DNA of 64,000 nucleotides from NCBI RefSeq assembly GCF_001886815.1, contig NZ_CP018099.1, forward strand, positions 3,718,501 to 3,782,500, written 5' to 3'. The position numbers and the translations under genes were made by a program. The notes under the pieces are model-generated. The model saw only the letters and a program-made list of their open reading frames with translations. It did not search any database and was not told the origin of the DNA. Numbering within the stretch: position 1 is the first letter of the stretch; every line of letters starts with the position of its first letter. This DNA is from Caldithrix abyssi DSM 13497. Its GTDB lineage: Bacteria > Calditrichota > Calditrichia > Calditrichales > Calditrichaceae. Shown in pieces: positions 53,531-58,343 of this stretch.

Positions 53531-54175
53531 TTAAGCTCCCATGTAAAATTTTTCTAACAGTTCAAAGCGATTATCATTTTTTCGTTTGAGGTACTGGATG
53601 ATGTCCTGTAAGTTGATGATCGATTCCAGCCGCACACCAGGCAGACCCGTTTGCTGGTTTTGCGTCCGGCGATCGACTGTCACCAGAATCCCCTCAATGG
53701 CCGTCCGAAAGTGATTTTTCAACAACTCAATGGCTTCCAGTTTAGTGCCGCCGGTGGTCAATACATCGTCCATAATCAGCACATGATCGTCGGCCCCGGG
53801 CTGGTAACCCACAAATACGCCGCCTTCGCCGTGCTGTTTTATTTCTTTACGGCTGTAAAAAGTTTGCAGATTTTTCTGATACAGTTCGTAGTAGGCCACC
53901 GCCGTAGCCGTGACAATCGAAATCCCTTTGTATGGCGGACCGTAAAGGGCTGTTGTTTGTGGGAAAACGTCGTGAATCTTTTGAGCCAGAACCTGTCCCA
54001 GCGTACGATAACCGTTACCCGAATGAATATCGCCAATATTAATAAAAAAGGGGGATTTGATTCCCGATTTGAGAGTAAACTCCCCAAAACGCAGAGCTCT
54101 TTGTTCAATTAAAAAATCGATAAATTGCTCTCCGGCAAAATCCGTTGGCTTAGATGGCCATTCCTTTTGTGTCAT
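53531..54175 (-). CDS. pyrE: Orotate phosphoribosyltransferase
   Basis: About 214 residues. PRPP motif VLIMDDVLTTGGTK, LYGPPYKGISIVTA, FYSRKEIKQHGEGG and FTLKSGIKSPFFINIG are all characteristic. I place the start at the ATG at 54175 (MTQKEWPSK, after GGGAAG); the longer frame to 54211 lies in pyrC. It overlaps the pyrC end by 26 nt. Confidence 0.93.
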   Translation of the reverse strand: MTQKEWPSKPTDFAGEQFIDFLIEQRALRFGEFTLKSGIKSPFFINIGDIHSGNGYRTLGQVLAQKIHDVFPQTTALYGPPYKGISIVTATAVAYYELYQKNLQTFYSRKEIKQHGEGGVFVGYQPGADDHVLIMDDVLTTGGTKLEAIELLKNHFRTAIEGILVTVDRRTQNQQTGLPGVRLESIINLQDIIQYLKRKNDNRFELLEKFYMGA

Positions 54176-55424
54176 TGACAAACTTCCCTTTCCGATATTT
54201 AACAATGCCATTAACCATGGTCATTTCTACTTTCCAGCGAAAATCAAAGTCTTTGTAAAGATTATTCCCCGTTTTCGAAATCACCTGCGCCTCCTGCTGG
54301 TTTCGATCAAAGCGTTTAACCATCACCAGGTCTGCCCAGTTGCCCTCCTTAATGCCGTCCCGCCCCTGAATGGCGTAACAGTGAGCGCTGCCCTGAGCAA
54401 TCAAGTGATTGAGCTGCCTCCATTTGATCACCCCCTCGTCGATCAAATAGAGTAATTGGGGCATTAACCATTCGATGCTCGCAATGCCCGATGGCGGATT
54501 TGCGCTTTGCTTTTCGGCCAGTGTGTGAGGCGCATGATCGGTGCCAATAAAATCAATCACGCCCTCAGAAAGCCCCTGCAGCAAAGCCTGCCGGTCGTCT
54601 TCGGTACGAATGGGCGGATTGACCTGCAGTGTGGTGCCGTATTTTAAATAGTCATCCTGTGTAAAAAACAGATAATGCGGACAGGTCTCGCCCCAAACGT
54701 CAAAGCCCTCTGCCTTCATTCTCCCTAACCATTGCACCTCGTCTCTGGTGTTCATGTGGCAGATAACCACCCGCGGTCTTTTTTGGTCTTCCAAATTTTT
54801 CAAGGCCTGCTCAATTTTCTGCAAAGCGCCGGTAATGGCTTCGCGCGGTCGCCATTCGTGGTGCGCTAATTTCTTTTTCTGTTCGTGCAAAAAGAAGGTT
54901 TCGTCCTCGGCGTGAATCGAAACCACGGGGTAATACTCAAACAATTGCAAAAGGGCGGATTTGCTGGTAATGGCCGGCAGGGAAGACGATTTTGCCATGT
55001 AAATTTTTACCGACTTCACCAGATTGTCTGTTTCAACGAAGCGTCCCTTTACGGCGTGCAGCATGATGCCCCAGTTGACCAGTGATTTAGCTGCAAATCG
55101 TTTGCGTTTTTCCATAACCCGGGAGTGGTTGGTGGTCGGCGGCCGATTATTGGGCATATCGATCACAGTGGTTACTCCGCCCTTGAGCGCCGCACGTGAG
55201 GCATTACGAATGCCTTCTTTGTACATCTGACCCGGTTCGCGAAAATGCACATGGGGATCGATGGCCCCCGGTAAAATAACGCAGCCGCGCACATCCAGCG
55301 TAAAATCGCTTTTAGGGGGATTTGAAGAACGGCCCAGCCTGACGATCCGGCCGTTCTCGATTTCTATGTGGCCCTCTTCAAAGTAGCCTTCCGCCGTTAA
55401 CCAGCGAGCGTTTTTAAGAATCAT
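54150..55424 (-). CDS. pyrC: Dihydroorotase
   Basis: A 424-residue amidohydrolase with DPHVHFREPGQMYKEG, MPNNRPPTT, SIHAEDE, ICHMNTRDE and GTDHAPHT metal and substrate motifs; KIYMAKSS precedes the central region. It cyclises carbamoyl-aspartate. It is the first gene of the pyr cluster; upstream lies the hairpin array at 55453-56351, so the transcript start is probably close to or within the repeat-containing region. Confidence 0.93.
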   Translation of the reverse strand: MILKNARWLTAEGYFEEGHIEIENGRIVRLGRSSNPPKSDFTLDVRGCVILPGAIDPHVHFREPGQMYKEGIRNASRAALKGGVTTVIDMPNNRPPTTNHSRVMEKRKRFAAKSLVNWGIMLHAVKGRFVETDNLVKSVKIYMAKSSSLPAITSKSALLQLFEYYPVVSIHAEDETFFLHEQKKKLAHHEWRPREAITGALQKIEQALKNLEDQKRPRVVICHMNTRDEVQWLGRMKAEGFDVWGETCPHYLFFTQDDYLKYGTTLQVNPPIRTEDDRQALLQGLSEGVIDFIGTDHAPHTLAEKQSANPPSGIASIEWLMPQLLYLIDEGVIKWRQLNHLIAQGSAHCYAIQGRDGIKEGNWADLVMVKRFDRNQQEAQVISKTGNNLYKDFDFRWKVEMTMVNGIVKYRKGKFVNDTKGMAI

Positions 55425-55452
55425 TTACCTTTAGCTTTCCATTTAAGTTTTT

Positions 55453-56351
55453 TAACTCTCCCTCTTTTCTGTGAAAGGGGGGAGTTCCTATGTAAAATCT
55501 TCCCCAAAACAACAATGTCCAGGTCTCTTTCACAATCTACCTCTTAATGGTCAAATCAGCTCTTCAGTTAAGTAAAATTTTTCTGGTTTGTTAGATTCCC
55601 AACTCACCTCCTCTAACTCCACCTATCTTCAACGAAGAGAGGGGGATGGGGGGTGAGTTCTTATGGAAAATCTTCCCCAAAACAACAATGTCCAGGTCTC
55701 TTTCACAATCTACCTCTTAATGGTCAAATCAGCTCTTCAGTTAAGTAAAATTTTTCTGGTTTGTTAGATTCCCAACTCAACCCCTCTAACTCCACCTATC
55801 TTCAACGAAGAGAGGGGGATGGGGGGTGAGTTCCTATGGAAAATCTTCCCCCAAACAACAATGTCCAGGCCTCTTTCACAATCTACCTCTTAATGGTCAA
55901 ATCAGCTCTTCAGTTAAGTAAAATTTTTCTGGTTTGTTAGATTCCCAACTCAACCCCTCTAACTCCACCTCTCTTCTGCGAAGAAAAGGGGATAGGGGGG
56001 AGTTCCTATGTAAAATCTTCCCCAAACAACAATGTCCAAGCCTCTTTCACAATCTACCTCTTAATGGTCAAATCAGTTCTTCAGTTAAGTAAAATTTTTC
56101 TGGTTTGTTAGATTCCCAACTCACCCCCTCTAACTCCACCTATCTTCAACGAAGAGAGGGGGATGGGGGGTGAGTTCTTATGGAAAATCTTCCCCCAAAC
56201 AACAATGTCCAGGTCCCTTTCGCAATCTACCTCTTAATGGTCAAATCAGCTCTTCAGTTAAGTAAAATTTTTCTGGTTTGTTAGGTTCCCAACTCACCCC
56301 CTCTAACTCCCCCTCTCTTCAACGAAGAGAGGGGGATGGGGGGTGAGTTCC
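55453..56351. repeat. Tandem array: six hairpins separated by five near-identical spacers (unit 171-173 bp)
   Basis: The marker AACAATGTCC occurs at 55511, 55684, 55857, 56028 and 56201, giving periods of 173, 173, 171 and 173 bp. Each unit has a ~110-bp spacer and a hairpin. The last hairpin (56290-56349) is the most perfect: AACTCACCCCC pairs with GGGGGTGAGTT, and inside it CCCCCTCTCTTC pairs with GAAGAGAGGGGG. A first hairpin lies at 55453-55488 before the first spacer. Each spacer holds the same 15-codon frame (MVKSALQLSKIFLVC; one copy has A to V) without a ribosome site. Related single hairpins lie at 56818-56872 and 60312-60362. Confidence 0.9.
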
Positions 56352-56366
56352 TTTGCTCAATCTGTC

Positions 56367-56725
56367 TTATTTCAAATATTCCTTAATTTTTTTAATTACT
56401 AAACCTAAATTTTCTTCTACTTCCTCATTTTTAAATCGAAGTACCTTAAGACCTTTAAGTTCCATTATCTCGGTGCGTATCTGATCATATTCCTTCTGTC
56501 TTAAATGAACTCCACCATCAATCTCAATTACCAATTTCTTTTCACTACAATAAAAATCCGCAAAAAAAAACTTTTTCTTCCATTTATTTCATATTGGATC
56601 GGATGTTGACGTAAAAATTTCTTCCCTTCCAGCCTTCGATTTCTCAAAGCTTCCCATAATATTAGCTCATATTTTGTTTGATTCTTCCGCAATTCCCGAA
56701 CGAATTGTTTAATTTGAGTTCTCAT
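56367..56725 (-). pseudogene. DUF559 endonuclease-like gene, frameshifted at a T9 tract
   Basis: The first 55 or so codons (LRKNQTKYELILWEALRNRR, FLRQHPIQYEINGRKSFF) match the start of DUF559 proteins, a restriction-endonuclease-like/Vsr-related fold. The frame then ends early (IFIVVKRNW). Adding one T to the nine-T run at about 56571 restores FADFYCSEKKLVIEIDGGVH...YDQIRTEIMELKGLKVLRF...KKIKEYLK, ending at 56367. This includes the DUF559 core (DFYC, IDGGVH, LRF.NEEV), about 119 residues in all. It sits 16 bp from the hairpin array. Confidence 0.8.
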
Positions 56726-56766
56726 TGTTTTGTGGTTTGTTTTTCAACTCACCCCCTCTAACTTCC

Positions 56767-56784
56767 GGGGCTTTCCCATAAGTC
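56767..56784. mobile_element. Possible solitary IS1182-type terminal repeat
   Basis: GGGGCTTTCCCATAAGTC resembles the terminal repeat of the IS at 29083 (GGGGCTGTCCCAAAAGTC; 3 differences in 18) and is likewise preceded by CCGG overlapping its first bases. It interrupts a CTCACCCCCTCTAACT hairpin-type sequence. No transposase or second end is seen here. Confidence 0.35.
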
Positions 56785-56909
56785 AAAGACAATGTATTTT
56801 TTTAAATTTTTTCTTTCTCTCACCCTCTTTAACTCCCTCTCTCCCGAAAATCGGCAGGGGGAGTTCCCTTGCCCGCTTTCCCTAAAAACTCAGGCAATTG
56901 CTTTTATAG

Positions 56910-58343
56910 TTACACTCTATTTGACTGCAACTTTTCTTTTTCAATGGCTTCCAGCACTTCCTCACCCGCTCCGGTTGGATACTGTCCCGAAAAGCAGGCG
57001 TGGCAAATGGGTAAGTCCTTGTACAAATCGATCAAATCTTCCAGGTCCTGGTAAATGACGGCATCTGCGCCCAGGTACTGACGAATTTCATCCACATCGT
57101 AATGGGAGGCCAGAATTTCCCGTTTGACGGACATATCGATTCCATAAATACAGGGATGCTTGACCGGCGGCGATGCGGAGATAAAATACACTTCTCTGGC
57201 GCCGGCAGCGCGCAGCATTTCCACAATACGCTTGGAGGTGGTTCCGCGAACAATGGAATCATCCACCACGGCAACCTTTTTACCTTTAACAATATCGCGA
57301 ATGGGATTCAGCTTGCGGCGCACCATCTGTTCCCGCTCCTTTTGGCCCGGGGTAATAAAGGTGCGGCCCATGTGGTGGTTTTTTGCCAGTCCGCGTCGGT
57401 AAGGGATGCCCAATTCTTCGGCCATGGCCGAAGCAAAAAAGTAGGCAGAGTTGGGCACATCGATAATAATATCCGGCTGCAGATCGCTCTCCTTAATCTT
57501 TTGGGCCAGTCTTTTTCCCATGCGAACGCGTTCGCTGGCCACCAGCCGATTGTGAATCACGGAGTCCTCCCGCGCGAAATAGATGTACTCAAACACGCAA
57601 AAAGCCTGCCGTTTAGTCAAACCGATTTTGGAGTGAATTTTGCGCTCTTCATCGATAAACACCATTTCGCCGGGTTTCAAATCGCGGATTTTTTCGTAGC
57701 CCAAAAAATCGAAGGTGGTGCTTTCCGAAGCAAAGCCGTAAATCACGCCTTTATCGGTAAACTTCCGTCCCATGACCAGCGGCCGAATGCCAAAAGGATC
57801 GGTAAAGGCCAGCAAGCCCTTATTGGCAATAATGGTAATGGCTGAGTACGCGCCCTGCACAATACGCTGAACGCCCTGAACTGAATCGAAGATGTCCTCT
57901 ACCGTTAAATGGCGCAAATCCTTTTGTTCCAGTTGCGTGGCCAGCGTGTACAGAATTAGAGCCACATCGTTGGAGGTATCCAGCAGGCGGTGGTGTTCTT
58001 CGTAAAGCTTACGCCGCAGTTCATTAAAGTTAACCACGTTGCCATTGTGTACCATGGCCAAACCGTAAGGATAATTAACGGCAATGGGCTGGGCATCCAC
58101 CGCTTCGGTAGAACCAATGGTGGAATAGCGTACGTGTCCCAGACCGATTTCGCCCTTAAAACGATCCAGGGGGAGATTTTTAAAAACCGTGCTTACAGAG
58201 CCGTTACCCTTGTGCATTTTAAATGAACCGTTAAACACCACCAGACCGGCGGAATCCTGCCCGCGGTGCTGCAATGTTTCCAGACCGTTTATGATATCCG
58301 CGGCCACATCTTCGTAGCCGTAAACGCCTATTACGCCGCACAT
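56910..58343 (-). CDS. purF: Amidophosphoribosyltransferase (iron-sulfur type)
   Basis: A 477-residue enzyme with Cys2 as N-terminal glutaminase nucleophile (MCGVIGVYG; no long propeptide), LETLQHRGQDSAG and MVHNGNVVNFNELR. The PRPP domain has VAVVDDSIVRGTTSKRIV. Cys residues in FCVFEYIYF, HPCIYGID and ICHACFSGQYPTG correspond to the 4Fe-4S ligands of the B. subtilis-type enzyme. It makes phosphoribosylamine, the first purine step. It starts 9 nt after the purN stop. Confidence 0.95.
   Translation of the reverse strand: MCGVIGVYGYEDVAADIINGLETLQHRGQDSAGLVVFNGSFKMHKGNGSVSTVFKNLPLDRFKGEIGLGHVRYSTIGSTEAVDAQPIAVNYPYGLAMVHNGNVVNFNELRRKLYEEHHRLLDTSNDVALILYTLATQLEQKDLRHLTVEDIFDSVQGVQRIVQGAYSAITIIANKGLLAFTDPFGIRPLVMGRKFTDKGVIYGFASESTTFDFLGYEKIRDLKPGEMVFIDEERKIHSKIGLTKRQAFCVFEYIYFAREDSVIHNRLVASERVRMGKRLAQKIKESDLQPDIIIDVPNSAYFFASAMAEELGIPYRRGLAKNHHMGRTFITPGQKEREQMVRRKLNPIRDIVKGKKVAVVDDSIVRGTTSKRIVEMLRAAGAREVYFISASPPVKHPCIYGIDMSVKREILASHYDVDEIRQYLGADAVIYQDLEDLIDLYKDLPICHACFSGQYPTGAGEEVLEAIEKEKLQSNRV

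Follow-up and report, generated by a model that had tools for sequence, protein, structure and literature searches.

A DUF559 nuclease gene and its flanking triplex-type hairpins as a probable bacterial mobile element

What does a small nuclease gene have to do with the hairpins that crowd around it? The question is raised by a 64,000-nucleotide stretch of the Caldithrix abyssi DSM 13497 genome (NZ_CP018099.1, positions 3,718,501–3,782,500; hereafter the window, the numbering of which is used below), in which a DUF559 (PF04480) nuclease gene on the minus strand, split into two frames (56367–56725), lies beside a tandem array of hairpins. An earlier note, made from the letters of the window, had compared this arrangement with repetitive extragenic palindromic (REP) sequences and their REP-associated tyrosine transposases (RAYTs), proposing that the nuclease could act on or spread the hairpins. 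Following up this proposal, we conclude that a DUF559 gene and its flanking hairpins probably constitute one mobile genetic element, in which the DUF559 protein would be the only enzyme and the hairpins the ends.

Hairpins of this kind accompany DUF559 genes far beyond the window. Our detector (mode B) required an inner stem of at least 5, CCC in the left arm, 80% pyrimidine, and a second C/G block or a stem of at least 9, within 260 bp of the gene. Stand-alone DUF559 genes adjoined such pyrimidine-first double-block hairpins at 69 of 80 named loci across GTDB (the best 80 of 554 confirmed candidates), 41 of 51 in Chloroflexota and 25 of 27 in Calditrichota, compared with 17/975, 9/196 and 0/89 distant segments, respectively. 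Vsr genes of the same Chloroflexota sample scored 0/29 (29 of 30 loci, L243 with its weak Vsr match being omitted), as did DUF559 domains of other architecture (0/20, weak matches hand-picked from the result rows, as were 20 strong regions). In a plasmid collection, 8 of 8 DUF559 loci were hairpin-positive (8 of 44 records). The density of pyrimidine-first hairpins around the 80 GTDB loci fell from 1.44 per kb close to the DUF559 match (up to 150 bp away) to 0.008 per kb at a distance of 5–10 kb.

Modes A, B and C of the detector were built after inspection of the GTDB, Chloroflexota and Calditrichota loci and fixed before the Alphaproteobacteria, which served as a hold-out. There, the pre-set detector was positive at 27 of 30 loci, compared with 7 of 113 distant segments and 3 of 30 for a mirror-image (purine-first) control. 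Association in related genomes, the point on which the earlier note had let its proposal stand or fall, was very strong in Calditrichota, and it was equally marked in more distant groups, the hold-out included. A first set of k-mers had given 72/80 versus 67/975 distant segments, but it had been selected on the very 80 loci that it was then used to score, so it is the later detector and the hold-out that carry weight. A strict first detector found hairpins at 30 of 51 Chloroflexota loci, and a slightly relaxed version at 12 of 27 Calditrichota loci.

A separate definition, modelled on that of Holder et al. (2015), asks for an intrastrand-triplex motif: pyrimidine–purine–purine (Y-R-R′) blocks forming a hairpin plus a mirror third strand, with loops of 1–6. 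Near DUF559 it matched 42/80 GTDB, 28/51 Chloroflexota, 19/27 Calditrichota, 17/30 alphaproteobacterial and 6/8 plasmid loci. The controls gave 0/29 for Vsr genes, 0/20 for other architectures, and 6/975, 4/196, 0/89 and 0/113 for the distant segments; on reversed sequence the definition matched 0/80 GTDB, 1/51 Chloroflexota and 0/30 alphaproteobacterial loci. In the whole 64-kb window, its sole matches fall at 56290–56350, beside the DUF559 gene, which points to more than a chance arrangement. DUF559 matches also seemed often to sit at contig ends of metagenome-assembled genomes from Calditrichota and other groups (for example, L037, L038, L053, L054 and L055), as expected if hairpin repeats break assemblies.

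The association extends to whole genomes. Counting one exact hairpin, CCCTCTCC-(3–6)-GGAGAGGG, in the same genomes without correction for kinship, and separating strong from weak DUF559 genomes at E < 1e-14 (a boundary set after the list had been viewed), we found at least 5 copies in 26 of 49 Chloroflexota genomes with a strong DUF559 match, 3 of 21 with weak matches only and 10 of 81 with none (151 genomes; 1,910 copies in total versus 13 of a purine-first control). Among 115 Alphaproteobacteria, 156 of 161 copies lay in the 30 strong genomes, 2 in 13 weak genomes and 3 in the 72 without DUF559.

Hairpin type and nuclease are also co-inherited. In a tree built from 188 DUF559 domains (L136 and L156, which are 100% identical and represent one locus in two collections, are both counted), hairpin type changes 52 times, compared with a mean of 77.1 in within-phylum shuffles (lowest 69; 0 of 200 as low). 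Within Bacteroidota alone (45 loci, two types) there are 3 changes, compared with a mean of 13.7 and a lowest value of 9 in 300 shuffles. At 26.5% of 98 loci, the hairpins on either side of the gene (5′ and 3′) have at least 12 identical bases in common, as against 1.0% of random pairs. Hairpin type therefore tracks DUF559 phylogeny, also within phyla.

Gene and hairpins move as a unit. One genome (G189) carries two cassette copies that are 93% identical over 598 bp and have unrelated outer flanks; their ends are inverted repeats of ~80–90 bp with the hairpin inside. On two Deinococcus plasmids, DUF559 occupies different sites of the same hpa gene cluster. The two flanks of a gene repeated each other (score of at least 40) at 114 of 181 loci and at 0 of 49 controls, the inverted orientation being the better one at 53 of the 181 loci and the direct one at 69, with ties at 59.

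Some cassettes lie in frame inside other genes. At 21 of 188 loci the DUF559 domain sits within a longer frame (at least 100 residues before it and at least 60 after), three of these being intein-like by eye and L136/L156 being one locus. By Pfam, the hosts are MetH, MetRS, ValRS-type, LeuRS, IleRS-type, PIG-L, Mfd, restriction–modification methylases and HsdR; an AroC host (L139) is a contig-edge case. Translation runs through the hairpins on either side of DUF559, and homologues of the host genes that lack both nuclease and hairpins were found. The insert in MetH (L118) maps between residues 956 and 959 of the solved MetH chain, and the one in MetRS falls in the linker preceding the tRNA-binding domain. 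In a Rickettsiales ValRS-type gene (L119), the DUF559 cassette is accompanied by a second stretch, SSRLRGEVRRGD...SLALPREREREQ, which resembles a translated palindrome without a nuclease. DUF559 also occurs in an apparent intein, judged from motifs by eye, at L002 (G000:C1:4109113), L184 and L185; in the latter two the apparent intein lies within a modification methylase-like protein. C-rich hairpin peptides come before DUF559.

At the window locus itself, the unit is an insertion, because the gap between pyrC and purF holds no DUF559 in relatives: among 11 loci fetched from the same family, 10 reach pyrC beside purF by tblastn (the pyrC match of L291 being partial), and all 10 are free of DUF559 matches in the gap. 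In a genome of the same genus (G001), the gap is about 120 bp and hairpin-free, compared with about 1.49 kb in the window. Pyrimidine-first hairpins without DUF559 occur in the gaps of G008 and G013 (L290 and L292) and are possibly derivatives or remains.

Hairpins without a gene are found in the alphaproteobacterial genome G242, where many hairpins form doublets 76–110 bp apart. We read 13 regions, picked for a listed doublet or cassette (10 doublets and 3 cassettes, with six listed single hairpins outside this set). At the left end they all have CCCTCTCC..GGAGAGGG-(TTA-like)-GGGTGAGGG, and at the right end CCCTCACCC-TCCC..hairpin..CCCTCTCC..GGAGAGGG; the three cassettes have DUF559 between outer hairpins that are spaced by 295 bp (partial gene), 405 bp and 417 bp. 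The left ends of eight doublets are 87–96% like those of cassette L307 and 61–70% like those of L312. Doublets L300 and L302 are closer to L312 (73–84% versus 61–75%), except at the right end of L300 (73% versus 75%). Because the doublets have both cassette ends without the gene, they show the pattern expected, on sequence grounds, of non-autonomous derivatives of particular autonomous copies.

Modelled with a mean predicted local distance difference test score of 91, one relative, L108, has its best structural match in the solved DUF559-like protein 3hrl (E = 3e-8) and also resembles I-Bth0305I (3r3p; E = 6e-5, template-modelling (TM) score 0.68) and Vsr (1vsr; E = 0.019, TM score 0.60). DUF559 is thus, as modelled, a single-domain nuclease fold like those of Vsr and I-Bth0305I. 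Its relatives share invariant E, D, E-x-D-G and H residues. We take these invariant acidic and histidine residues to be the active-site residues of the Vsr/EDxHD-type PD-(D/E)XK fold. Members of the family can be active, since a Caulobacter DUF559 protein is required for a DNA-damage response in methyltransferase mutants, according to the parts of that study cited here (PMC12907096).

Taken together, the cassettes that move as units, the gene-less derivatives with the same ends and the matching of hairpin type to nuclease phylogeny lend support to the analogy with REPs and RAYTs. The hairpins, with the pyrimidine arm first and a mirror-related third block that may permit an intrastrand triplex, would be the ends of the element. 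The nuclease most likely recognizes its own hairpin type and would nick or cut there, and the element would then be copied elsewhere by break repair or during replication, landing between genes or in frame inside them. Gene-less doublets, and perhaps lone hairpins, would be non-autonomous derivatives, and the array in the window may reflect local amplification around a freshly broken nuclease gene. By analogy, the best reading is a selfish element that would work in the manner of REPtrons and doublets of REPs (REPINs), with a Vsr-like nuclease. A wider proposal seems to us evenly balanced: that this is a phylum-spanning, unrecognized autonomous transposable element with a Vsr-like PD-(D/E)XK nuclease of ~120 residues as its only enzyme and triplex-forming hairpins as its ends, that it is the source of the bacterial 'intrastrand triplex' repeats (in E. 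coli, through a ycjD element), and that it can enter essential genes in frame and be translated there as a domain.

Several observations weigh against such an element. No target-site duplication was seen by eye at the G189 pair. About 10–20% of strong DUF559 loci lack a hairpin at the detector threshold; 13 of the 49 Chloroflexota genomes with a strong DUF559 have no hairpin of the exact type, and the 10 of 81 without a DUF559 match that have at least 5 hairpins hold up to 57. The window genome, a single contig of 4,978,541 bases, has three DUF559 loci: the one in the window, L001 with its own hairpin array and L002 beside a different C-rich repeat array. In that genome neither the hairpin type of the window nor that of L001 is dispersed. 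A clean empty site for ycjD in E. coli was also considered and rejected, as strains without ycjD have an efflux operon block in its place.

The mobile-element reading has to be weighed against three others. We regard it as unlikely that the hairpins are older repeats, moved in some other way or by recombination, into which DUF559 genes enter as site-specific invaders, much as some insertion sequences insert into REPs. Direct flank repeats are common (the 69 loci noted above), which is what entry of a gene into an array would produce; insertion-sequence-like DNA joins the hairpin loops of a miniature inverted-repeat transposable element (MITE)-like repeat in the window genome; and lone or repeated hairpins exist without DUF559. 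Yet the L001 type has three copies genome-wide, all at L001, and the window type, at up to one mismatch, is found within the window genome in the window locus only. Homing into pre-existing repeats also sits poorly with a hairpin type that follows DUF559 phylogeny within phyla, with in-frame insertions that bring two-sided hairpins into genes whose homologues have none, and with gene-less doublets that have both cassette ends.

It is considerably less probable that DUF559 is a Vsr-like mismatch-repair nuclease of the host and that the hairpins merely regulate or terminate its transcription, despite the similarity of fold to Vsr and the proposed role of Caulobacter VsrA in mismatch repair (PMC12907096, in the parts cited here). 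Vsr genes themselves had no such hairpins, and hairpins as terminators were rejected as we found no terminator-like site in 55420–56910. Moreover, the hairpins are dispersed through genomes as gene-less doublets, lie inside coding frames and differ by DUF559 clade, and the doublets of G242 have both ends of the DUF559 cassettes. The least probable reading, by a small step, is that triplex hairpins break DNA and so gather any small foreign gene, with the excess of DUF559 due to chance or to selection for breaks. It draws on the raised variability around triplex motifs described in the cited sections of Holder et al. 2015 (PMC4666352), but would predict numerous genes other than DUF559 between hairpin pairs and a hairpin type independent of DUF559 clade, whereas type and clade correspond in our data.

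Knowledge of triplex hairpins, also called potential intrastrand triplex (PIT) elements, goes back to 2000 for E. coli and many other bacteria, and to our knowledge their spread has so far had no explanation. In the cited sections of Holder et al. 2015 (PMC4666352), over 260 genomes carry the same motif as an intrastrand triplex repeat; 23 copies are given for E. coli MG1655, along with five inverted doublets of type A and type B, and the authors report finding no mobility functions near the motif. These motifs (TM, TMECO and PIT), as described there, follow the same sequence grammar as the DUF559 hairpins, and their A–B doublets resemble those of G242; the difference is that here the motif would be the end of a nuclease-coding element. 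In E. coli, the DUF559 gene ycjD, between sapF and fabI, adjoins a motif identical to TMECO no. 9 (1,351,239–1,351,204; Table 1 of PMC4666352, as cited). The region around ycjD is polymorphic: of 5,426 genomes, 3,362 have at least 80% of an 821-bp query. Comparing the sapF–fabI interval (L282 and L284 versus L283), we observed a resistance–nodulation–division (RND) efflux operon and a TetR-type regulator beside fabI in strains without ycjD, and strain a7 has an IS421-like element after ycjD. In the open-access literature we found no paper that connects palindromes or triplex repeats with DUF559 or ycjD; an earlier report elsewhere is possible. Recurrent G-rich/C-rich hairpin-triplex repeats of Methanomicrobiaceae, as described in part of PMC8044849, resemble the DUF559 hairpins.

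Among known systems, REPtrons and REPINs come closest in arrangement: a small enzyme gene flanked by type-matched imperfect palindromes, with gene-less palindromes elsewhere, some inside genes (PMC3733652, cited in part). The likeness, functional only, lies in an enzyme gene flanked by its palindromes and in gene-less doublets elsewhere, whereas the enzyme is a PD-(D/E)XK, Vsr-like nuclease and not a histidine–hydrophobic–histidine (HUH), single-tyrosine (Y1) transposase. In REPINs, the palindromes often occur as inverted doublets. REPs tagged with GTAG or CGTC were rejected as an identity for the 368 hairpins, in which the tags are not enriched (GTAG/CTAC in 21 and CGTC in 26, versus ~26 expected per single 4-mer). 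Likewise rejected was a pyrimidine/purine bias serving six open frames, as stop-free 60-mers around the hairpins numbered 12/368 (3.3%) versus 5.2% when shuffled. EDxHD homing endonucleases such as I-Bth0305I, and Vsr, are the nearest characterized folds, and intein-borne DUF559 also occurs; unlike these enzymes, most DUF559 genes here are free-standing, outside introns and inteins, and bracketed by repeated hairpins. Rickettsia palindromic elements (RPEs) likewise lie in frame in conserved genes (PMC10969869, cited in part), comparable to the DUF559 cassette and the further hairpin-like peptide in the ValRS-type gene of L119, and the cited part of PMC3733652 describes CGTC repeats, RPEs included, as without a dedicated transposase. 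For Caulobacter VsrA (CCNA_02930), likewise a DUF559 protein, there is genetic evidence that DNA is damaged in cells; it was investigated as a repair enzyme of the Vsr type with a link to a methyltransferase, and in the available text of that paper (PMC12907096) the string 'palindrom' does not occur.

The break in the window gene fits the two halves separated by a T9 run that the earlier note had described. Two minus-strand open reading frames (ORFs; 56528–56725 and 56367–56585) together encode a single DUF559 protein, with its N-terminal part in the first and its C-terminal part in the second, as judged from ORFs, translations and PF04480 matches. The profile matches each part separately (positions 2–43 at 37.7 bits and 44–108 at 68.6 bits, both above the cut-off of 20.6 bits), and the two frames are one base out of register where the plus strand reads A9 (T9 on the coding strand; 56562–56570). 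Because all 17 columns invariant among 20 relatives are retained, distributed across both parts in a by-eye comparison, the break, if a mutation and not a sequencing error, looks recent. Similar split copies, with two adjacent half matches, were seen at G011:C77, G189:C22, G211:C8 and G173:C174; because several copies are split in this way, nuclease decay seems common.

The array (55477–56352; Tandem Repeats Finder (TRF) and repeat search) comprises 5.1 units of 173 bp with 94% matches by TRF and one pyrimidine-first hairpin per unit. A pattern search placed the hairpin of the first full unit at 55603–55660, with further copies from 55776, 55949, 56120 and 56293; the gene-proximal one (56290–56350), found in the triplex-definition scan, has a perfect 13-bp stem. 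The array ends 14–16 bp from the DUF559 stop codon, close to the 16 bp given earlier. The same note had placed hairpins of the same type on the other side of the gene: on its 5′ side lies the left half of an array hairpin (56742–56765), with CTCACCCCCTCTAACTTC at one mismatch at 56748–56765 (genome 3775248–3775265), interrupted by a truncated and diverged copy (about 56765–56872) of a ~200-bp MITE-like repeat that is dispersed in the genome and has a related inner hairpin. The left half bears out part of that claim; the hairpin at 56818–56872 belongs to the MITE-like copy and not to an array unit. In the window genome (G000), this dispersed repeat (ggggctgtcccaaaagtcaaag...gagacaccc) bears a triplex-type hairpin (loci L011–L034), and at least five copies (for example, L013, L015 and L027; L017 and L033) are fused at the hairpin loop to two kinds of foreign DNA, as if insertion sequences targeted the loop. 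The neighbouring genes, both on the minus strand and syntenic in relatives, are dihydroorotase-like pyrC to the left (54150–55424; ORF and tblastn) and amidophosphoribosyltransferase-like purF to the right (56910–58343; ORF and DNA search). No match to known RNA families was found at this locus.

Pairing DUF559, a large family of unknown function, with the triplex/PIT hairpins would offer an origin and also a function, testable together in E. coli K-12 through ycjD and TMECO no. 9. If true, it would provide a nuclease-driven counterpart to REPtrons, and it might explain some repeat-broken assemblies and the odd 'SPLPLGEGLGVR'-type peptides in essential proteins. It also advises caution against calling every DUF559 gene a repair enzyme.
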